Below are positions 6,007-47,501 of a DNA stretch of 64,000 nt, piece by piece. The stretch is from Heliocybe sulcata. Taxonomy: Eukaryota; Basidiomycota; Agaricomycetes; Gloeophyllales; Gloeophyllaceae. Each line of letters opens with the position of its first letter. Position 1 is the stretch's first letter. The DNA is taken from assembly GCA_004369045.1 (NCBI GenBank), contig ML213514.1, positions 891,538-955,537 of the forward strand. Reading direction: 5' to 3'. A model generated the notes under the pieces. The model saw only the letters and a program-made list of their open reading frames with translations. It did not search any database and was not told where the DNA came from. Position numbers and translations under genes: made by a program.

Positions 6007-6830
6007 ATGTCTGCGCCGCAGAATTTCCACGTCGTTTCCTCCCCGGCACACTTTCAGGACTTGCTCTCACAGGACCTCAACCGCATTTCCCTCATCAATT
6101 TCTGGGCGCCATGGGCAGCACCATGTGCGCAGATGAACGAGGTCGTGCTTGAGCTATCAAGGAAATATTCTGAGCTGCTGGTCCTTCAGGTACGTCCTGT
6201 TCATAGCGACTAGACCGCAAATTCATGCGAGGCGGCTAGGTGGAAGCGGAAGAGCAGCAAGACATCACCGAGTCTTTTGAGGTCGAGGCTGTCCCGTCCT
6301 TCATCATCCTTCGTGGTCACACCCTTCTTGGTCGGATATCTGGTGCCGATGCGTCCGGTCTCACCACGTCCATCGCCGCTGCCCTTCGACCCGCGTCCTC
6401 CGTCCAGCCGAAGTCGTATTCCAATGCTCAGCCTGCGCCGCCAGATACCGAGACACCGGCGCAGCTCGAGGAGAGAATCAAGGATCTTATGACCAAGGAG
6501 CGCGTGATGCTGTTTATGAAGGGCGTGCCGGATGCACCGAGATGCGGGTTCTCGAGGAAGACGGTTGGAATCTTGAGGGACCACGGCGTGCCGTTCGGTA
6601 GCTTTGATATCTTGAGCGATGAGAGTGTTCGTCAGGGTGCGTTGACTCAAACTCAAAGACTTCAATATGAGCGAGACTGACATCGGAATGCAGGGATGAA
6701 AGTGATCAACAATTGGCCGACATTCCCGCAGCTCATTGTCAATGGCGAGTTCGTCGGTGGCCTGGATATTATCCAGGAGATGATCGAGAATGGGGAGTTT
6801 GACGAGATCGTCGTGGGCAAGGCTCATTGA
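6007..6830 (+). CDS. GRX4: Multidomain monothiol glutaredoxin (Grx3/4 type)
   Basis: A cytosolic/nuclear iron-sulfur cluster-binding regulator of iron metabolism in fungi (family knowledge). Exons 6007..6189, 6240..6636 and 6694..6830 join in frame to 238 residues. An N-terminal thioredoxin-fold domain carries WAPWAAPC, with one cysteine as in the family. After a proline-rich linker, the C-terminal glutaredoxin domain has the cluster-ligating CGFS motif in [10 protein letters not shown] and the glutathione-binding [16 protein letters not shown] segment. The length matches yeast Grx3/4. Introns are 50 and 57 nt. Nothing suggests damage. Confidence 0.93.
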
Positions 6831-7005: not shown

Positions 7006-7158
7006 TCAGGGACATGTTACGGCGCATCCACACGGTTCGCAGAACACCTCGGGTGGTGTACACGCAATGTCACACATGGGTTCGGGGGCGGGCTGCGGCG
7101 CGCCGAGAGTCAGTGCGCTGAGCGCAAGAATGAGGCCCGCGTAGATGAAAGTCTTCAT
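7006..7158 (-). CDS. Secreted six-cysteine micropeptide 1 (SCP-1)
   Basis: Encodes 50 residues. A signal peptide of about 19 residues (MKTFIYAGLILALSALTLGA) is followed by a Pro/Glu linker and a core with spacing C-x3-C-x6-C-x2-C-x-C-x3-C ending in CP. The ATG is preceded by a GT-AG intron (7163..7215) in the 5' leader, as in its four relatives downstream. The mature peptide would be about 30 residues, probably disulfide-bonded and extracellular. It pairs with SCP-2 by its PQPAPEP-like linker. Function is unknown. It is not a hydrophobin, which has eight cysteines including CC pairs, and the spacing is not that of CS-alpha-beta defensins. Confidence 0.75.
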   Translation of the reverse strand: MKTFIYAGLILALSALTLGAPQPAPEPMCDIACTPPEVFCEPCGCAVTCP

Positions 7159-7162
7159 GTTG

Positions 7163-7215
7163 CTGGTTATACAGATAAGTCGCGAAACTCGCACTCGCTG
7201 GAGATGATTACTCAC
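7163..7215 (-). other. 5'UTR intron of SCP-1
   Basis: A 53-nt stretch from GTGAGT to CAG on the minus strand, ending 4 nt upstream of the ATG. Equivalent introns precede all five paralogues, so it is likely real although no transcript is available. Confidence 0.6.
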
Positions 7216-7387
7216 GAGTTGGATGTCAGAGATTGCAAATACTGTACTGGCGAGCGTAAGGCAGAACTATGTGTACTGCAACATTCAGCATTCAGTCTCT
7301 CGTGCGCCTGGAAGTACGCAAGACCACACGACTCACCTGTCCCTGGCAAACCTGGACAATGCAACCGTCCTCATGCAGGCTACGGCA

Positions 7388-7396
7388 TTTTATATA
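7388..7396 (-). promoter_or_regulatory. TATA box of SCP-1
   Basis: Minus strand reads TATATAAAA about 230 nt upstream of the ATG, a distance conserved in SCP-3, SCP-4 and SCP-5. Confidence 0.5.
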
Positions 7397-7906
7397 CTCT
7401 GAGATCTCTGAGAATCCAGCCATCAGGACTCCGTCAATCAAGCATCAACAGTGAACGTGGGTGAGAAAGGTGAGGCCATTCGGGTCTTCCTAACTGCGAT
7501 CTAGCGCTCTGTGGACTGGGCCGGTCATGAGGCTAGCAATTAACGGAAGTATAATGGTGCGCAGTGTTTACCAGGACGGAGCTACCGATCCGCTCTTGAT
7601 TCTTCCCTCTTGTTAACATGTTTTATGATGGAGTTGGTGGGTTGATGCTGGAACTGTTCGCAGTGATCGCAGGCTGTCTAGTTCAGACTGCGGCCATCAA
7701 CGACTAGCCTGACCGATGGGCATGGCGGGCATTGCGCGGATATCCGTTCAGGTACGACTTGTGGCTCGTCCCTGCCTGTTCGAAATTTGCTTTCGCAGTT
7801 TCCATTTCGGACTTATATCCCGTCGAGTGAGTCTGGCAGATATATGGCAATATTATGAATTATACGGTATTGCCTCATTCACATAATACAGCATTCTGAG
7901 GGCCTC
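7397..7906. other. Intergenic region between SCP-1 and SCP-2
   Basis: No gene or repeat is recognised; it is the upstream region of SCP-1. Confidence 0.4.
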
Positions 7907-8065
7907 TCAGCAAGACGTTTTGCAACTGCAAGGCGGGCAGAACACCAAGTCAGGTGGGCAAAAAATGGGACAAACTCCTGCGGGCTCGGGTTCAGGATTG
8001 GGAGCCGCCAGTGCAACTGCGGTGAGTGCAAAGAGGAGAGTCGTATACATGAATATTTGCATCAT
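7907..8065 (-). CDS. Secreted six-cysteine micropeptide 2 (SCP-2)
   Basis: A 52-residue ORF below common gene-calling size limits. Tandem ATG codons begin a hydrophobic signal peptide (residues 1 to about 21) followed by the linker PNPEPEPAG and a core with spacing C-x3-C-x6-C-x2-C-x-C-x3-C, ending in cysteine directly before TGA. It shares linker style and core with SCP-1. The cleavage-site context ALAAP is typical for signal peptidase. Its 5' leader intron (8074..8136) ends 8 nt before the first ATG. Extracellular and disulfide-rich by inference; function unknown. Confidence 0.7.
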   Translation of the reverse strand: MMQIFMYTTLLFALTAVALAAPNPEPEPAGVCPIFCPPDLVFCPPCSCKTSC

Positions 8066-8073
8066 GCGTTGAC

Positions 8074-8136
8074 CTGATTATACGCTTATAAGATGGTAAG
8101 TATGCCTTCTGCAACCTGCATCTTGGTCTCACTCAC
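8074..8136 (-). other. 5'UTR intron of SCP-2
   Basis: 63 nt, GTGAGT to CAG on the minus strand, 8 nt before the ATG. It is the longest of the five leader introns. Confidence 0.5.
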
Positions 8137-8186
8137 CAGAGACAATGGTCGTGGAAAGTCAAGGTTGTATTCACAGTCGATGGTCA

Positions 8187-8194
8187 TTTTATAT
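8187..8194 (-). promoter_or_regulatory. TATA-like box of SCP-2
   Basis: Minus strand reads ATATAAAA about 122 nt upstream of the ATG, closer than in the other four family members. Confidence 0.35.
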
Positions 8195-8518
8195 CGGAAA
8201 GAGGCTGAAACGTGCAGACTGCAGCAATACCCGGCTGCTGTCATCGCCTTACCCGCTCACCCAGGCCCTCCATCCTTGTGGCGACTGCAGATGCGCCACC
8301 ATCAGGGCCATGAGTATGGGTAGTTAGAACATCCCCCGGGTAGGGTGGCGACTCCACAATTCATCATTCTCGTTTTTTGCATTCTGTGGTGTTCTCATGC
8401 ATTCTTACGGAGACTTGCGCTCATGTCGGTTATTGTCGGAGAAGCCGGCGCCAGAATGGTCTTCCAGACCCACATTCTTCCAAAGAGCTAGAGTGCAATT
8501 CATTCCGGTGAGTCACTC

Positions 8519-9735
8519 CTAATACTCGCTGTTCTTAGCCCGATTCGCTCTCCATGTGTAGTACTCCCCACTACTCATGACGGGATAATTCATTGGATTC
8601 TCCGCGGAGATGCAGCTGGGCACGGGCTCCAACAGCATTTCCCTATCAAACCCAAAGAAAAATGGACACGAATACCGCTCCTTCCCGCTCTTGTTGATCA
8701 CCCGGTGGACCGTCGAGACGAAGAAGTCGTTGGTCTGGCGCATAAAGCAGTCGGCGATGTTGACTACGAGTGCCCCAGGGACTGGAGGTGCCCTAACCCA
8801 CTCGCCGGATTTGGAGAGGACTTCGAGCCCGCCGCAGTCGTCTTGAGTGACCATGGTGAAGCACTCGAAGTCCGTGTGTGCGCCAATGCCGTTCTGGTCG
8901 TCTGGTGAGGCCTGGATTGATGAAGAGTGAGTGAGACTCTCAGCCACTCGGCGATTGCTTCGCACTCCCCTCCTGTTCTGGATAATGCAAGATCCTCATG
9001 CCAGCCTCGGGTCGTTTGACGTATTCGTCAAAGTAGTCTTCCGGCATATGCAGTGCCAGGGCGAACATTCTCGTCATCTTGCGCGCGAGCGTAAGAAGCT
9101 GGGTATGGTACGCGTATAGCGTCTCCTTGAATTCAGGTAGGTTTTCGGGCCAGATACTGGTAGATGGTCTATCCTTTGCGACAGCTCCGGGGTCGAACTG
9201 GGCGTCATATGCCCAGTTGAATGCCTCACTGAGGTCTGTGAACGAGGTGAGCTCCTGTTCAACCCGGATCTTGTACTGGTGCAGATGTATATTCACCATT
9301 GTACTTCCTATGATTACGATTGTAGCCTTCCAGCGGGTGATACCCTACGTACTCATTCGGAACCAGGCCAGTCCATACTTTCATCTTCTCCTCCATTGAC
9401 AGAGAGAAGAACCGTCTGGCTTGATCGAAGGTATCTTCTTTGTATCTCGCATCGATTCCCTGAGGAGATGTCAACATTGGAGCCTCGACGAGGACCTGCC
9501 CGATACGCACATGATTGACGGCATAAAAGAATCCGATTCTGGAAGCGGCTTCTCTGACCTGCTCAGCCACCGCTTGTCGGTCCTTAATGTCATCGCTGAA
9601 GATGCCCTTGATATCAATGATCGGTATCTCCCCGGTGTCTCTGGCGAGGTTCGACTTGTATGACACTATCTGCCCATTCTGAAGTTTCAGAGTCAATTGT
9701 GGTGCATCTGCTTCGATAGTGGCCGTTGTCGACAT
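8519..9735 (-). pseudogene. 2OG-Fe(II) oxygenase paralogue A, apparently splice-damaged
   Basis: Isopenicillin-N-synthase-like dioxygenase that would use 2-oxoglutarate and Fe(II) in the cytosol. Exons 9735..9511, 9459..9297 and 9235 to about 8970 join in frame. The N-terminal DIOX_N segment reads IPIIDIKGIF, and the last exon carries the iron-binding HTD and the distal HRV plus the 2OG-binding RYS. The last junction is the problem: where paralogue B (46284..47501) has a GT donor, this copy reads GG (minus strand, 8969-8968), and the nearest GT leaves the wrong phase for the acceptor. Reading through meets a stop. All catalytic residues are otherwise kept, so the damage is recent or an unusual junction is used. 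Start codon chosen by alignment with paralogue B. Confidence 0.7.
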
Positions 9736-9800
9736 TAGAGTATGACTGACGCGACTAGCAGCACGGTGGAGCTTCCGAGCTTGCAATGGGTATCTAACGC

Positions 9801-9808
9801 CTTATATA
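9801..9808 (-). promoter_or_regulatory. TATA box of 2OG oxygenase A
   Basis: Minus strand reads TATATAAG about 70 nt upstream of the start codon at 9735. Confidence 0.45.
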
Positions 9809-9992
9809 CCACTTACCGGTCAAGATAGCGCGCTATCGTGCCATTGGAGAGTATTCAAGGTTCTGGTTCGGATAACGTGTGAGACATAAATGGAGAGAAC
9901 AGAATAGCCGTCCACACCGAACGTTTCCGTGCCTGTCCTTCCCAACCATAACCTTGAGCAGGCGACTTGCATATGTCTGCTTTGAAGTAGCT

Positions 9993-10069
9993 GCTTGTGA
10001 GCGTTCGACTCACGTATGTCGAATAATACGCTTACAGACTGTCATCAGATAGAAATGAAGTTCCTCGCA
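9993..10069 (+). pseudogene. Truncated inverted copy of the SCP-3 5' end
   Basis: The plus strand here matches, over about 77 bases, the minus-strand leader intron, splice acceptor, ATG and first five codons of SCP-3 (10546..10468). Identity is high, with a few substitutions and a short indel. After MKFLA the homology stops and the frame runs only a few more codons to TAA. It is a broken duplicate in opposite orientation, probably made by a local inverted duplication. Confidence 0.75.
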
Positions 10070-10113
10070 GGCTTGATGGTCCCGGGGTTAACCAGGGCAC
10101 CCGACTATTAATG

Positions 10114-10135
10114 AGACGCGTGACGTCACGCGTCT
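10114..10135. promoter_or_regulatory. Perfect 22-bp palindrome centred on a CRE (TGACGTCA)
   Basis: Every base pairs with its mirror complement: AGACGCG, then TGACGTCA, then CGCGTCT. The centre is the canonical bZIP (ATF/CREB) site. It lies 45 bp beyond the break of the inverted SCP-3 fragment and about 170 bp from the SCP-3 stop codon. It could be a bZIP operator or a rearrangement footprint. Confidence 0.55.
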
Positions 10136-10305
10136 GCTTCGCGGCACTCAATATTCAGTTCCTTACAGAAGGCTCGACTTTCTGCACCCTTCAATATAGA
10201 GGTAACCATAGGATAGCCTAGCAGTCTATTACAAGAGAGCATGCTAGTGGTAACAGGTATGGACTGTGAGCTCAACACTATTACTTTATCCTCGTCCGAA
10301 ACTCC

Positions 10306-10482
10306 TCACGCCTTCGTAGACGTCGGTGCACACGGTGTAGAGTAGCATCCGCAAGGAGCGCAAAAATGGTAGGGCTCTAGACATGCTAGGTCGCAATGGA
10401 TCTGGCGCCAATCCAGCGCAGTTGCGTGGCTCTGAGTAGCAAGAGCCAGAACCAGAGCAGACATCATTGCGAGGAACTTCAT
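10306..10482 (-). CDS. Secreted six-cysteine micropeptide 3 (SCP-3)
   Basis: Encodes 58 residues: a signal peptide to about residue 20 (ending SHA), then a propeptide-like TALDWRQ, then a core C-x3-C-x6-C-x2-C-x-C-x4-C and a seven-residue tail (APTSTKA). The segment CDLACLEPYHFC is closest to SCP-4. The ATG was chosen over an upstream in-frame ATG because the signal peptide begins here and the leader intron (10489..10542) removes the upstream part. Secreted and probably disulfide-bonded; role unknown. Confidence 0.75.
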   Translation of the reverse strand: MKFLAMMSALVLALATQSHATALDWRQIHCDLACLEPYHFCAPCGCYSTPCAPTSTKA

Positions 10483-10488
10483 TTCTAT

Positions 10489-10542
10489 CTGACGGCAGTC
10501 TGTAAGCGTAATATTTTCGACATACGTGAGTCGAACGCTCAC
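10489..10542 (-). other. 5'UTR intron of SCP-3
   Basis: 54 nt, GTGAGC to CAG on the minus strand, ending 6 nt before the ATG. The truncated inverted copy at 9993..10069 retains it. Confidence 0.55.
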
Positions 10543-10714
10543 AAGCAACTAAGACCTGATGGACAGTACTTCCGGAGAGTTCTGACAAGGAGTTCGATGC
10601 TGATACAGGGATGGAAGATTAGCTACGCGCGTTGTACAACTCAGGAGTCAGGACGAGAAGACATACCGAGTAGCTTGAGGTGTGGAGGTGTGCTACCCGA
10701 CCACTCCGCGCCAG

Positions 10715-10721
10715 TTTATAT
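10715..10721 (-). promoter_or_regulatory. TATA-like box of SCP-3
   Basis: Minus strand reads ATATAAA about 233 nt upstream of the ATG. Confidence 0.4.
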
Positions 10722-11093
10722 CTGCGTCCTTTCGTAATGTAATGTGCGCTCCTCAGCTTCATGAAGTCGCAGATGGTGGTGTTTAATTGAATCCATTAGT
10801 TCGTGTATTAATATTCAATTGTTCCTGTGGCGCCGGCACATGCAACTTTTCGAAAGCTAGACTCTCAAAATTGTCTAAGAGTATGCTCGTAAATTTCACT
10901 CTGTACGCTGCGCCGTACCTGGCTCCTGCGTTTCAGCTGTACGGGATCAATACAAATGCTATTGCCGATCCGATCCCGAGACTGTTCAACGCAACATAGT
11001 CGTTATCCTCCAGTCTCGTCCCGGCTACCCGACATTCATTACTTCCCGAGCGATGGACCTTCTTATCCGTCCAGATCCTCGTTCCCGAGTTAA

Positions 11094-11258
11094 TCAGGTC
11101 TCGGTGCAAGGTGTCAGACTGCACGAACAAGGCGGGCAGAAATGGTACGGCTCTCCGCAAGCAATGTCGCAGACGACTTGACGCTCCTGAAGAACTGTGG
11201 CGTGGCTCCCGGCGATAAAGGTGAGTAATAGGATCGCGACGGAGGTGAGGGACTTCAT
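11094..11258 (-). CDS. Secreted six-cysteine micropeptide 4 (SCP-4)
   Basis: A 54-residue ORF found by its similarity to its neighbours. Signal peptide residues 1-20 (MKSLTSVAILLLTFIAGSHA), then TVLQERQ, then a core C-x3-C-x6-C-x2-C-x-C-x4-C ending TET. The ERQ-V-x-CDI stretch is shared with SCP-5 and, as WRQ, with SCP-3, and may mark a protease step after a single arginine (inference). The leader intron (11264..11316) ends 5 nt before the ATG. A TATA box lies at 11474..11482. Function unknown. Confidence 0.75.
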   Translation of the reverse strand: MKSLTSVAILLLTFIAGSHATVLQERQVVCDIACGEPYHFCPPCSCSLTPCTET

Positions 11259-11263
11259 GGTGA

Positions 11264-11316
11264 CTGTGGCGATTCGCGTCAGAAGACGCGAACTTGATGT
11301 ATATGCTCAACCTCAC
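11264..11316 (-). other. 5'UTR intron of SCP-4
   Basis: 53 nt, GTGAGG to CAG on the minus strand, ending 5 nt upstream of the ATG. Confidence 0.55.
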
Positions 11317-11473
11317 CTCTATAACGAGATCTTCAGCCACAGAGAGGTTTTGAATGCAGCGAAGTAGATGGACCTGTAATTAAATATCAGGCTCCTGCTC
11401 AGGTCGAGGACTGTGGATTTAGTTACGATATCGTGTTCGACCGCAAGTTGGTCTCCGCAGCACAGCGACGGGC

Positions 11474-11482
11474 CTTATATAC
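11474..11482 (-). promoter_or_regulatory. TATA box of SCP-4
   Basis: Minus strand reads GTATATAAG about 216 nt upstream of the ATG. Confidence 0.5.
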
Positions 11483-12084
11483 GTCCCTCAATGCATGCCG
11501 TTATACGGAGTCTCTATAAGTAAGAGTACCCCATCTATTCTTCGCCGACCGTGTTTCAGCTTCGGCCGTGGAATCAATCAACGCTGAAATTCAAGGTTGC
11601 CGCGTTAGAGAAACTAAGCGAAGACAATTCATAGGGAACGGACCGGTTCGGGCGCCTAGTAGCGAATGACAGCGCTCTGCACAACGCCCCGCAAGTCATA
11701 CAGGCTGCGTGACCAAAGGGAAATGGCATCCCGTACTGCCATAACGCCACACAACGAGAGCCCCAGATGCGCTAGGCGAATCGGGTCGGACGGATACAGA
11801 AGGGGATTCGCCAGCCGCGTGTCGACCAACGAGCGATGAAAGTCAAATAGCACGGGGAATGATTAACGAGGGGCCGCCATAACGAATTTTGTGTCGAAAC
11901 ACGGCGAGCGTTCACGGTTTCACATATCCCGTACTGCTCGCACTGAGAGCCACGTATCTGAATAGCTGGCCATTCACTTGCAGTGCGCTGCCTTGTCACA
12001 AAGAATAAACCGAGGGCGAATCATCTTCTGTTCATTGCACTCCCCATTACACTGCGACCTACATAAGCACGACTTGCCCTAGGT
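11483..12084. other. Intergenic region between SCP-4 and SCP-5
   Basis: No further family member, repeat or gene is seen on either strand. Confidence 0.4.
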
Positions 12085-12249
12085 CTAAGCGCAAGGCGTC
12101 AATGAGCACTTGCAAGGAGGACACAGGTAGTAATGAGGCTCCGGGCACGACACAATATCGCATGTGACCTGGCGCTCTTCGAGAGCAACGGCGCTGCTAC
12201 CCGCAATGAGGGCGGCAAACAGGACGGCGACGGAGTTGATATACTTCAT
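12085..12249 (-). CDS. Secreted six-cysteine micropeptide 5 (SCP-5)
   Basis: Encodes 54 residues: signal peptide 1-20 (ending GSSA), then VALEERQ, then a core with one extra residue in each of the first two loops, C-x4-C-x7-C-x2-C-x-C-x4-C, ending in CA. It is the most upstream gene of the minus-strand array. Gene architecture is identical to SCP-4: leader intron 12261..12311 and TATA box 12470..12478. Very likely a tandem paralogue. Role unknown. Confidence 0.75.
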   Translation of the reverse strand: MKYINSVAVLFAALIAGSSAVALEERQVTCDIVSCPEPHYYLCPPCKCSLTPCA

Positions 12250-12260
12250 TGTGATCGCTT

Positions 12261-12311
12261 CTGGGATGCTCCACATTAGAAAGTTGATCTAGTGCAAATG
12301 GTTCTGCTCAC
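12261..12311 (-). other. 5'UTR intron of SCP-5
   Basis: 51 nt, GTGAGC to CAG on the minus strand, ending 11 nt before the ATG. Confidence 0.55.
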
Positions 12312-12469: not shown

Positions 12470-12478
12470 CTTATATAG
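12470..12478 (-). promoter_or_regulatory. TATA box of SCP-5
   Basis: Minus strand reads CTATATAAG about 221 nt upstream of the ATG. Confidence 0.5.
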
Positions 12479-14521: not shown

Positions 14522-14986
14522 GGTCGTGGATTAAGCCTTTGGTACAATATTGTGGTCCTCTTAGACTGTCTTCCTATGTTCGGATTTTGCCGGAAAAAAA
14601 ATTAGCGCTCGTTAATCTTGCAAACTCTGTTTCTTAAGTTACTCCCCTAGCTCTTCCTTTCGAAGTATTCCGCGCGGTTGCCTGCAGGCAGCAGTGTTTG
14701 AGTATCCAAAATCTATCACGGTCTGTCATGAAAGGTCAGCTGAACTTCAGGCGCTCGCGCAGCTAAGCAACAATCACCGTGCTACTTATATACCCTCCCT
14801 TTGAATCAATAGACAGCAGCTGGATCCGAATCCCACGCGGCCGCGCCATGCCCTATCAGTTTGACGTTTAACTGGACCAGAAAATAATGCGGATATCTGC
14901 ATAACGTTCCTCGTTGCTCTTGAGCGCGTTTGTACGCCTCGGCACCCCCACTGCCGCCTGGATACTCTTGAAGAGTGCCATTTACC
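14522..14986. promoter_or_regulatory. Divergent promoter region between POP4 and ABC transporter 1
   Basis: A 465-bp gap between divergent genes with no coding signal. Both promoters must lie here. No specific operator is recognised. Confidence 0.4.
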
Positions 14987-17900
14987 ATGCCCATCTCGTT
15001 TCCAATCGGTTCTATTCCTGCAGCACTAGCCTTGGCGTTGCTTGTGGCTCGACTCCCTCTTCCAAAGTCGGTTCAGAGGGCGGTGAATGTCTTGAAGTCG
15101 CCTTTCGAGGCGTTCATTCCCCTCGAGGAAGCTGAAATATCGCTCCGGGGAGAGGGCGATGCTACAGTAAATGACCCTGCAACTCGTTCTGCTGCACCGC
15201 TCTGGCGTACCGTCGTTCTGTCCTGGGTCGCCCTGCTGGAGAGTCTAATTTGGCTCGGTATTGCATGCTACCGGATTATCGTGGCGCACGACATCGATGC
15301 TCTAGAACTCAGTGAAGCTCTCGCGATCTCAGCATCCTGGTTATATGCCGCTCTCAAACCTATCCTTGTCCCTACGCCCACAGTTCCCTACGGCCTTTTC
15401 CTCCTGTACACTGCCCATCTCGCTGTTGCGACAGTCTTTCTGGCGTCTCCACTATACGACTACAATGTGGATGATAGAACTCTCCCGCCTACCTGGGGCT
15501 TGATCGCACTGGCCTCAAACATCACGTTAATCCTGCTTTTGCTTACTGTCGTCGTTCACATGCCCCTCGCCGTACCCCGAGTTGGCGTAAGAAAGGAGGA
15601 CATCGGTGTCTCTGTCTCTCCAGAGGAATACACTAGTTTATGGAAGTGGCTGACCTTCGACTGGGTACGGCCTCTGGTACAGCGAGGCAGAAGGAGTACT
15701 CTCAATGAGGAAGATGTCTGGAATCTCAGTCCTACTATGCGAGCGCGCGTAGTATTCGCCAAATTCCAGCAGATCCAACAAACGTCTATTGTCTATCGCT
15801 TATGGCGAGCAAACTCGCAGGACTTCCTAATGGACTTCATCCTCACGTGGACCACCGTGGTGTGCAACTATGCTGGACCATTCTTCCTGAAGAAGATCCT
15901 CTCGGCTATCGAAGACGGCCCGCGTGAAAGTCTGTCGCGAGCGTTTGTTTTTGCGTGCCTCTCGTTTTTGGCACACGTCCTGAAGGGAGAGTCGGAGCTG
16001 CAGCACTTGTGGTATGGGAGGCGCGCGGCGACCAGACTTAGAACTGAGCTGCAGGCGGCAATATACGAGAAGGCTCTGAAACGAAAGGATTACTCTGGAG
16101 TTGTCCCGAAAGATAAGCAAGGCAGCGATACGTCGGCGGATAACAAGGACGGGGAGAAACCAAAAGCTGGTGCTGGTATTGGGAAAATCGTGAACCTGAT
16201 GTCTTCTGATGTTGAGCGGGTCTGTTCCGCCATTCTCTCTTATTCAGTCGTGTTAATGACGGCTCGATTCGCAGATTGTGACCATATCGCAAATACTGTT
16301 CTACATATACTCAGGTACGGGAAGCGCACCGCAGGTATTCTTCGAACTGACGGTCCGTCGCCTCAGCGCCCTTTGAGATCGCCTTGGGGGCAGTCTTCCT
16401 GTATGAGTACGTTACCGTCCCTATTGCCGATCGTCGTAATGGACCTTATGATATCGCCTCAGGCTGCTCGGATGGTCAGCCTTCTCCGGTTTCATCGCCT
16501 TCGTCCTCGCGTTTCCCGTGAGCAGATGGCTCACCCAGCGCGCAGTGCGCATGCGGCGCGACTTGTCTGCAGCGCAGGATAAGCGGGCAAGTGCTGTCAA
16601 CGAGCTCATAGGCGCTGTGCGGTTTATCAAGTTCTTCGCGTGGGAGGGGAGGTGGATTAATCGTGTGATGGAGGCCAGGAAGAATGAGCTCTATTGGATA
16701 AGGAGAGGTAGGAGTTGCTATTCCGATTCTCTGAGCCGTGCTTAATGGCCATTTCTAGGTCGGATCAACGTCCTCCTCTTTCACGCGTTATACGTGCTGT
16801 CGCCGGTCCTCATTACTTTGATATCGTTCTTCACCTATGTTGCGCTGGGGAATCAGCTGAACGTCTCCACTGCCTTCACTGTGAGTTGTGAATCTCTTCG
16901 CAAAAAGTTCTTCGAGTCACCTCTGTCTCCCCAGGCTCTAGCACTCTACGCCATGATCAGGTGAGTAGCCTCGGGACAAGGATGTTATGAAAAGTACGAG
17001 TTGAACTGCGTCGCAGGGATCCGATGAATATCATCCCAATCTGGCTCTTGCAGATCGCCGACGTGAGTATCGCTCCAGCTATCCCGAATATTTCTTAACG
17101 CGCGATTTGTCATCAGACGACAGTTGCACTGCGTCGTATTGAAACTTATCTGAACGAAGACGAAGTCGATGGAGGTGTCTCTTCCCTGGAAGAAGCAGGT
17201 GATACCGTGGCTGCGCAGAGAGGATTGGCCATCATCGAGGGTACCTTCAAGTGGAACGAAGTAGAACAGTCTCCAGAGGTCGTGACTGCTCAGGCTCGAG
17301 ACCACATCGAGAGTACCAACGAGGGAACGGGAGAAACAGATGTTCAGTCCAATCCTGACCTCAGCACCACCGGCGATCACGACTTTAGGTTGAGGGATAT
17401 AGATGTCACATTCCCAGAAGGCAAGCTTACCCTCATTACGGGGCCAACGGCGTGTGGGAAGACGGCTCTTCTGGTGACAATCTTCTGAAATCCAGGAATC
17501 CTCAATGCACTGAATGTTCTTCCAGATGGCACTCCTCGGCGAGATGACAATTCTCTCTGGACGCATTTCGTTGCCTAAGGATACCTCGAAAATCGACTCT
17601 GACGGTCTCGTGCACGCTATATCCTACGCTTCTCAGAGCCCGTGGCTGCGGCACCAGTCTATCAAGGACAATATCCTCTTTGGGCATATACTGGATCAGA
17701 AACGATATGAAGCCGTTGTAGAGGCTTGTGCTTTGAAGCCGGACTTCGAGATACTGGAGGATGGTGACGCTACTGAGATAGGTGCTGGGGGCATAAGTCT
17801 CTCCGGGGGACAAAAGGCAAGGTGCGGATTTCCTCTTGCTTAACGGCATTCCAGTCTCCATCTCGTACTGAATGACGCTGGAAGGGTTGCACTGGCTCGC

Positions 17901-46164: not shown

Positions 46165-46283
46165 AGCGAGACGACAACCACATGTGAAAGTCTCTGTTCT
46201 CTTGTAGACGAATTTGTAGCAGTATATCCATAACGCACGAGACATAACATTGGAATCCATCGTCTTTATCTTATTGACACGGT

Positions 46284-47501
46284 TCACAAACCACCCGCTT
46301 TGGCAGTGTTGGCTCGCCATCTGTAATACTCGCCAAACGTTACCACCGGATACTTAGCTGGGTTCTCTTCGGACACGCAGGACGGCACGGGCTCCACCAA
46401 GATATCTCTGTCGAAGCCAAAGAAAAAGGGGGCCGAGTAGCGTTCCTTGCCACTCTTGTTGATGACCCGATGGATAGTGGATACGAAGAAGTCGTTGGTC
46501 TGGCGCATGAAGCAGTCGGCGATGTTGACCACCAACGCACCCGGCACGGAGGGCGCCTTGATCCATTCACCGGACTTTGAGAGCACCTCGAGTCCGTCAT
46601 TCTCGTCTTGTGTGACTATTGTGAAGCATTCAAAGTCGGTGTGGGGGCCGATGCCGTTCTGGTCGTCCGCAGACGCCTTGGCGGATGTCAGCTACCTGAG
46701 GGAACAGGAAACATGTACAGAAGCTTACGTCTTGCTCGGGGTAATGTAACACTCTCATAGCCGCTTCTGGGAGCCGCACGTGCTTGTCAAAGTAGTCCTC
46801 TGGCATACCCAAAGCCAAGGCGAAGAGGCGACTCATTCTCCTGGCCAGTACGAGCAGCTGCGTATGGTATGCGTACAGTTTCTCCCGAAAGCCCGGTAAG
46901 TTATCGGGCCAAATACTGATCGGCGGTCTGGCGTCAACAGGCGCCTCTGGGTCGAACTCGGCGTCGTACGCCCAATTGAAAGCTTCACTGAGATCTACAC
47001 GTTTGTCAAGGGTAAACTGAAACCTTGGACAGGGTGGTCCTCACCGTTGTTTTTTCTCCCATCGCGATTGGATGATAGTAAGAGATGGTAGCCGACGTAC
47101 TCGTCAGGGACTAGTCCAGTGTATAATTCCATTTTTGTCTCCTCTGGCAGGGGAAAAAGCGCTTGGCTTGCTCGAATGTATCGGCTTTGTACTTGGCGTC
47201 GATGCCCTGAGCCCGAGATCCAATGAGCACAGGAGATGGCGCAGGCGTGGTCTCTGCAGCGTACAGGGTTGATCATGTAAAAGAATCCTACCCGCGAGGA
47301 GGCTTCGCGAACCCGCTCGGCGACAGCCTTGCGATCGTCGAGCCGGTCACTGAATATGCCCGCAATGTCTATGACGGGGATTTCGTCTGCTTGTCTAGCG
47401 GCGTTGGACGGGACGTGTATGGTTTGGCCACTGTCGAGCTGGAGAATGGCGGGCGAGTCCCGCAGGTTTGTGTCAACAGTTGCTGTGACCAGGGCAGACA
47501 T
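46284..47501 (-). CDS. 2OG-Fe(II) oxygenase paralogue B (intact)
   Basis: Isopenicillin-N-synthase-like dioxygenase, about 350 residues. Starts MSALVTATVD (47501), then the DIOX_N block EIPVIDIAGIFSD. Introns after MINP, after GRKNN and after PEQD all have GT-AG ends and keep frame. The catalytic domain has iron ligands in GPHTDFECF and HRVINKSGKERYS, where the arginine of RYS binds 2-oxoglutarate. Closely similar to the damaged paralogue A at 8519..9735, 37 kb away and on the same strand. Usual substrates are small molecules or thymine-like bases; none can be assigned. The conserved NHG triplet reads NPG here. Confidence 0.88.

Follow-up and report, generated by a model that had tools for sequence, protein, structure and literature searches.

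A Cluster of Very Short Genes in Heliocybe sulcata

The window, the 64-kb stretch of genomic DNA of the brown-rot mushroom Heliocybe sulcata analyzed here, harbors an array of five very short genes (m1–m5), which are listed with their candidate upstream elements in table 1. The first-pass annotation had described five minus-strand ORFs of 50–58 codons, all of which were recovered where it had placed them and on that strand. It had also proposed the core C-x(3,4)-C-x(6,7)-C-x2-C-x-C-x(3,4)-C, which is borne out by spacings of 3,6,2,1,3, of 3,6,2,1,4 or of 4,7,2,1,4 in the five members, along with CxPCxC and CD(I/L) motifs in most of them, which are present in 5/5 and 4/5 sequences, respectively (m2 has CPI). 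Its division of the linkers into a Pro/Glu-rich type (m1 and m2) and an (E/W)RQ type (m3–m5) proved correct, and the N-terminal leader that it assumed agrees with an N-terminal hydrophobicity of 2.30 (2.29) to 2.74 in m1–m5.

Table 1. Peptide genes of the array and candidate elements preceding them (window coordinates)
Feature	Position	Strand	Description
m1	7006..7158	minus	50-aa precursor; X-Pro linker APQPAPEP; core spacing 3,6,2,1,3
m2	7907..8065	minus	52-aa precursor (51 from second Met); X-Pro linker APNPEPEP; core spacing 3,6,2,1,3
m3	10306..10482	minus	58-aa precursor; WRQ linker; core spacing 3,6,2,1,4
m4	11094..11258	minus	54-aa precursor; ERQ linker; core spacing 3,6,2,1,4
m5	12085..12249	minus	54-aa precursor; ERQ linker; core spacing 4,7,2,1,4
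m1 candidate leader intron	7163..7215	minus	53 bp GT..AG, ending 4 nt before ATG; consensus only
m2 candidate leader intron	8074..8136	minus	63 bp, ending 8 nt before first ATG; consensus only
m3 candidate leader intron	10489..10542	minus	54 bp, ending 6 nt before ATG; consensus only
m4 candidate leader intron	11264..11316	minus	53 bp, ending 5 nt before ATG; consensus only
m5 candidate leader intron	12261..12311	minus	51 bp, ending 11 nt before ATG; consensus only
m1 TATA-like box	7390..7396	minus	TATATAA at -238; consensus only
m2 TATA-like box	8187..8193	minus	TATAAAA at -128; consensus only
m4 TATA-like box	11475..11481	minus	TATATAA at -223; consensus only
m5 TATA-like box	12471..12477	minus	TATATAA at -228; consensus only

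Protein searches of the same genome, in which each member served as query and the results were pooled, revealed two further members outside the window (m6 and m7), located about 200 kb from the m1–m5 array in the same orientation, so that the family comprises at least seven genes in H. sulcata. These searches returned the seven places and two chance matches, on contig 1 (E 0.36) and contig 25 (E 0.002), both of which lacked the six-cysteine core on reading. A profile scan of the window and three further sequences (L040–L042) recovered the seven members, each at E < 1e-19, and beyond them its best match had E 0.34, at 46274–46339.

Between m2 and m3 lies a gene for a 2OG-Fe(II) oxygenase, which the first-pass annotation passes over. 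A genome search with this oxygenase gave 11 matches, two of them on contig 12, namely the gene itself and a paralog within the window. The same profile scan detected no peptide gene beside the paralog, the end of which is overlapped by the E 0.34 match. In the 20 kb around m6 and m7, 10 of the 32 ORFs of at least 90 codons were scanned and none encoded a 2OG-Fe(II) oxygenase. A functional partnership between the oxygenase and the peptide genes is thus not supported.

Leader, Core, and Constraint

A hydrophobic leader is present in all seven members, with hydrophobicity values of 2.29–2.75 against a median of 0.75. Among 289 ATG-started window ORFs of 45–70 aa, a background that probably includes m1–m5 themselves, 9% reached a hydrophobicity of 2.0 and 4% reached 2.3. 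An intron-like stretch of 49–63 bp, ending 4–11 nt before the start codon, was observed in six of the seven genes; m7 showed no leader intron under the strict rule, and no strict TATA box was found for m3. Applied to the whole window, the intron rule, which was devised after inspection of the sequences and defines candidates by consensus alone, was passed by 34 of 2268 ATGs, six belonging to m1–m5 (m2 through two ATGs), as compared with 28 of the 2262 other ATGs.

The core spans 21–24 residues in m1–m7 and contains six cysteines, which are invariant in 7/7 members even though the codons TGC and TGT alternate, and the CxPCxC motif likewise occurs throughout. Members differ in the sequence of the loop linking cysteines two and three, and the net charge of the core lies between -3 and 0 in every one of them. 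With the last loop set to 3–5 residues, the core pattern matched five times in the window, precisely at m1–m5, and in none of 200 simulated 64-kb sequences generated by a first-order Markov model.

In all 21 pairs of the seven members, pN (0.23–0.51) was lower than pS (0.66–0.94), and the peptides therefore look constrained at the level of their sequences. Similarity between the genes at the DNA level was detected in 6/21 pairs, where it was confined to the coding sequence, save for about 5 nt preceding it in m4/m5.

Absence of a Named Family

Among deposited proteins, m6 alone was found (H. sulcata OE88DRAFT_1661773), in agreement with the Agaricomycete origin that the first-pass annotation had guessed, and no relatives in other species were detected at the sensitivity of that search. 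The expectation that genes of this size are easily missed by gene callers is supported by this single deposited protein among seven members, and we consider the genes probably real but almost entirely unannotated. No Pfam match was obtained for any of m1–m5 at E ≤ 1, nor for any of four members, including m6 and m7, at E ≤ 10, in searches where the HMMER filters drop most matches above about E 0.1. Profile searches against the PDB gave no match in one instance and, in the next, two weak and irrelevant ones, a designed peptide and a neuraminidase (E 0.94 and 2.8). Two fold predictions had low pTM (0.36 and 0.33); both models place a hairpin near the third and fifth cysteines and contain no helix, and Foldseek returned no match of either to solved folds. 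Literature searches, including by the name Heliocybe, yielded no paper on these peptides as judged from titles and abstract openings. The lack of any Pfam match, relevant PDB match or other deposited protein upholds the earlier remark that no named family with this spacing is known. The peptides form a new family of a kind that is already common, that of small secreted cysteine-rich fungal peptides. Metallothionein and hydrophobin readings were set aside on the basis of the leader and the cysteine pattern, taking both groups as commonly defined.

Linkers and Proposed Maturation

Three linker types separate leader and core: X-Pro dipeptides (m1 and m2), a single Arg-Gln (m3, m4, m5, and m7), and Lys-Arg followed by Glu-Pro (m6). 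As sequence motifs, these match known fungal processing routes. The X-Pro/X-Ala dipeptides typical of STE13 occur as APQPAPEP in m1, APNPEPEP in m2, and KR-EP in m6 and are absent from the four RQ-type members; the KR site is restricted to m6, and each precursor carries one core.

Judging from its hydrophobicity, the leader would take each precursor into the secretory pathway. In m1 and m2, a STE13-type dipeptidyl aminopeptidase would then strip the X-Pro dipeptides; in m3, m4, m5, and m7, cleavage after the single Arg would leave an N-terminal Gln; and in m6, Kex2 would cut after Lys-Arg, with subsequent removal of Glu-Pro. If the motifs are used in this manner, by all three routes the mature chain would begin between one and three residues ahead of the first cysteine of the core, yielding a peptide of about 23–34 residues, which the six invariant cysteines would lock through three disulfides. 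In basidiomycetes, both STE13 motifs and signs that precursors are processed by STE13 have been described, and an Agaricomycete precursor expressed in Pichia gave pyro-Gln peptides as well as peptides ending at a single Arg (PMC9769878).

The precursors resemble the KEX2-processed repeat proteins (KEPs) of Agaricomycetes in their leader, their Kex2 or STE13 motifs, and possible pyro-Gln ends, and STE13 X-Pro/X-Ala dipeptides are found in some KEPs; unlike m1–m7, with a single core per precursor, KEPs have several repeats flanked by dibasic sites (PMC9769878). The m1–m7 core holds six cysteines, whereas the word cysteine is absent from the main text of that account of KEPs (PMC9769878).

Comparison with Other Peptide Classes

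The CS-alpha-beta defensins are defined by the cysteine order C..CxxxC..C..CxC and a helix, and the pro-region of plectasin, one of their members, contains X-Pro. Like plectasin and copsin, m1–m7 are predicted to be secreted and disulfide-rich, and m1 and m2 have X-Pro linkers, but their cysteine order is CxxxC..C..CxC..C, both low-pTM models lack a helix, and the cores are acidic to neutral. Basidiomycete mating pheromones end in a C-terminal CaaX and are linked to STE3 receptors; neither this identity nor a mating-type link is supported for m1–m7, of which 7/7 have a hydrophobic leader and 0/7 a CaaX ending, while the 14 STE3 matches in the genome all lie on contigs 11 and 16. Such pheromones are, moreover, synthesized in the cytoplasm and prenylated (PMC9769878).

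Fungal knottins such as Avr9, the MLP124266/AvrP4 family, and the Histoplasma Fungi1 family are likewise small and secreted with six cysteines (PMC6889267, PMC4503680). Knottins have the spacing C-X2-7-C-X3-10-C-X0-7-C-X1-17-C-X4-19-C and the disulfides I-IV, II-V, and III-VI, the last being threaded (PMC6889267). This spacing as quoted fits 5/7 members, since the last loop of m1 and m2 has three residues against a minimum of four. In contrast to the named knottins, m1–m7 have a core of only 21–24 residues with putative disulfides and have neither sequence nor fold match to a solved structure; the named knottins also come from pathogens, whereas H. sulcata is a wood-decay fungus (PMC10380501). 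With the species-specific small secreted fungal proteins of PMC4649063, m1–m7 share predicted secretion, shortness, and the lack of a homolog found elsewhere, but the 300-residue cutoff of that study greatly exceeds their length, and they are multicopy with a fixed cysteine framework.

Possible Function

The first-pass annotation had suggested effectors, antimicrobials, or signaling peptides as possible roles. We favor, with a probability of roughly 55%, the view that m1–m7 are real, spliced genes of a family with seven or more copies, grouped in two clusters, whose products are secreted, matured by three linker routes, closed by three disulfides, and act as an extracellular ligand for a protein target. 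The weakest step of this scheme is the last, namely that the peptide would act outside the cell by binding a protein rather than by breaking membranes; a small, presumably stable, neutral to acidic peptide would most likely be such a ligand. The fungus itself or a competitor could supply the target, for instance a receptor, enzyme, or channel, and no evidence gathered here points to any particular one. A knottin-like fold is possibly shared by these disulfide-rich peptides.

Extracellular metal binding, with the cysteines as ligands, is suggested by the dense CxPCxC motif in 7/7 members, yet it appears highly improbable given that the oxidizing secretory route favors disulfides and that the core cysteines are invariant and even in number. 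Self-signaling peptides matured as in ascomycete alpha-pheromones seem unlikely as well, because X-Pro linkers also occur in defense peptides such as plectasin and melittin and because none of the STE3 matches falls on contig 12. This is despite the resemblance of the X-Pro and KR-EP linkers to STE13/Kex2-processed precursors, those of basidiomycetes included (PMC9769878).

Knottin-fold peptides inhibiting secreted proteases or other enzymes, and thereby shielding the secretome of the fungus or blocking that of rivals, would account for the variable loop between cysteines two and three, as expected of a binding loop, and for the five members that fit the quoted spacing (PMC6889267). We nevertheless find this doubtful, since the last loop of m1 and m2 is one residue short, the hairpin in both models lies away from its usual place in knottins, and no PDB relative was found. 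Little weight is likewise given to antimicrobial peptides acting on membranes or cell-wall precursors of bacteria or rival fungi in wood: the genes are small, multicopy, and cysteine-rich with leader-like N-termini, and Kex2 cleaves the antimicrobial peptide copsin from Coprinopsis cinerea upon its expression in Pichia (PMC9769878), but the neutral or acidic cores in 7/7 members weigh against classical cationic antimicrobials, and the complete lack of Pfam matches extends to the defensin families.

A more tentative reading, which we hold possible though not probable, is that one very short three-disulfide core with its own fold was retained while its maturation signal was swapped among STE13-type dipeptides, a single Arg-Gln, and Kex2 combined with one dipeptide. 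A fungal lineage would thereby have gained private extracellular ligands, set free by different proteases. The family would offer a natural comparison of maturation routes on one core, provided that the three processing types are real, and the cores are short enough for chemical synthesis, so that direct functional testing is possible. More broadly, a constrained multigene peptide family can be almost missing from deposited protein sets, and the recovery of one member in seven suggests that mushroom genomes may encode more peptides of this very small size than counts indicate.

The Six-Cysteine Array and Its Outlying Members

The five minus-strand ORFs (m1–m5) proposed by the first-pass annotation were all present where it had placed them (see the table below), and their alignment bore out the claimed cysteine core, since 5/5 conserve all six cysteines as well as the CxPCxC proline. 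With the last loop set at 3–5 residues, the core pattern matched exactly these five genes in the window and produced no match across 200 simulated 64 kb sequences. Between m2 and m3 the array is interrupted by a gene for a 2OG-Fe(II) oxygenase with DIOX_N and 2OG-FeII_Oxy domains; a paralogue of this gene lies ~37 kb off in the same window, the pair being 78% alike across query residues 7–144. The neighbor of m1 is a glutaredoxin-domain open frame, convergent with it on the opposite strand. Elsewhere in the window, a 536-residue open frame had no Pfam match and showed 33–46% identity to 13 proteins, some of which bear the name or the domain marks of fungal ABC transporters.

Protein searches of the genome (31.6 Mb, 51 contigs; the window comprises bases 891,538–955,537 of the 955,537-base contig C12), using all seven members as queries and pooling the results, recovered seven places. 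The two further members, m6 and m7, are located ~194 kb left of the window, on the minus strand like m1–m5, and the m6 core has six residues in its last loop. No single-member query gave the full set, and six of the seven queries scored exactly six candidates each, possibly a ceiling of the initial search stage, so the family comprises at least seven genes. Two additional weak matches were discarded on inspection. Scanning the window plus 30 kb around it with a profile returned the same seven members, the best E value beyond them being 0.34. Around m6/m7, 10 of 32 ORFs were scanned against Pfam and six of the ten matched a family, namely Ku, PTPA, arrestin (below the cut-off), aldo-keto reductase, citrate transporter, and SPX. 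On other contigs of this genome, C11 and C16, we observed 14 STE3 matches, 11 of which fell at 798–837 kb of C11, a region that looks like a pheromone-receptor mating locus.

Coordinates of the family members and of other features (window positions unless C12 is given)
Feature	Position	Strand	Source
m1	7006-7158	-	ORF
m2	7907-8065	-	ORF
m3	10306-10482	-	ORF
m4	11094-11258	-	ORF
m5	12085-12249	-	ORF
m6	C12:696226-696408	-	genome protein searches
m7	C12:697028-697207	-	genome protein searches
Glutaredoxin-domain frame	6240-6680	+	
Oxygenase gene	8519-9786	-	
Oxygenase paralogue	46299-46712	-	
536-residue frame	14972-16579	+	
Inverted repeat, first arm	9988-10069	+	
Inverted repeat, second arm	10468-10551	-	

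Sequence Evidence for m1–m7 as Probable Genes

Constraint, candidate leader introns, and TATA-like boxes in the sequence together argue for m1–m7 being genes. In 21/21 member pairs pN (0.23–0.51) was lower than pS (0.66–0.94); dN/dS is withheld because silent differences were saturated in many pairs. Cysteine codons switch between TGC and TGT with the residue kept, and the DNA similarity detected in 6/21 pairs was confined to coding sequence, except for ~5 nt 5' of it in m4/m5. A candidate leader intron (GT..AG, 49–63 bp, with a branch-like site and ending 4–11 nt before the ATG) was found in six of the seven genes, including m6 outside the window; m7 had none under the strict rule. Across the window 34/2268 ATGs passed this rule, six of them belonging to m1–m5 (m2 via two ATGs), and at the background rate of the remaining ATGs (28/2262) the passing of 5/5 genes has a probability of ~3e-10, a flattering figure since the rule was set post hoc, with the sequences already known. 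Strict TATA-like boxes were located at -223 to -248 in m1, m4, m5, m6, and m7 and at -128 in m2, and were absent from m3.

The region of m3 also holds a two-part inverted repeat (36 bp at 97% and 48 bp at 94%), which arises because the candidate leader intron of m3, together with its first codons, recurs as a truncated plus-strand copy ~400 bp away in opposite orientation. If long enough, an m3 transcript could form a fold-back structure.

Possible Precursor Maturation and Family History

The leaders have hydrophobicities of 2.29–2.75, values of at least 2.3 and 2.0 being reached by 4% and 9%, respectively, of 289 ATG-started ORFs of 45–70 aa. Three linker types were distinguished: APQPAPEP and APNPEPEP (m1, m2), xRQ (m3, m4, m5, m7), and NKR-EP (m6). 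A maturation route is plausible for each, because matching processing is described in passages of PMC9769878, which report that Agaricomycete precursors contain Kex2 and STE13 motifs, that there are indications of processing at these motifs in basidiomycetes, and that Pichia expression gave pyro-Gln peptides as well as peptides ending at a single Arg. Processing of this kind would release peptides of roughly 23–34 residues.

The two clusters share an order in which, following the direction of reading, RQ-type genes come upstream of the X-Pro or KR type. The tree separated m1, m2, and m6 from m3, m4, m5, and m7; support for this split was moderate (82/83), none of the branches reached the program's mark of firm support, and m6 and m2 formed long branches. 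This shared order and the tree split suggest that the family may descend from an ancient pair of genes that was duplicated as a unit and later expanded.

Fold, Distribution, and Possible Roles

AlphaFold2 was run twice, once with m4 as the first sequence (five rows) and once with m1 (six rows), and both models show a short hairpin (residues 19–21 and 25–27) around cysteines three and five. Mean pLDDT was 75 and 77 but pTM was low (0.36 and 0.33), and Foldseek matched neither model in the PDB. The knottin spacing quoted in a passage of PMC6889267 was fitted by five of the seven members, m1 and m2 being one residue off in the last loop, and the fungal knottins described in passages of PMC6889267 and PMC4503680 come from pathogens. 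On these grounds the peptides are here termed at most knottin-like rather than knottins.

Among 263 candidates, the seven-member profile search returned a single protein, OE88DRAFT_1661773 of Heliocybe sulcata, identical to m6 over 61/61 residues; a five-member profile matched none of 65 candidates. No relatives were found in other Agaricomycetes, although the database searched includes proteins of such species, an absence that says little since m1–m5 and m7 were not found there even for Heliocybe itself. Small secreted cysteine-rich peptides are an already known, common kind in fungi, to which the present set adds a new family that has no name, whose core is very short and whose processing motifs are mixed, as judged against titles, abstract starts, and passages of open-access papers, and an earlier description is possible.

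Taken together, the members appear to be ligand peptides that act outside the cell. Among the roles raised by the first-pass annotation (effector, antimicrobial, or signalling), a classical membrane-active antimicrobial is disfavored because the cores, with net charges of -3 to 0, lack the positive charge expected of one. For extracellular ligands of a wood-decay fungus (Heliocybe belongs to Gloeophyllales, and a passage of PMC10380501 calls it a brown-rot fungus), antagonism of other organisms and enzyme inhibition seem, in our judgement rather than as a result, likelier than self-signalling.
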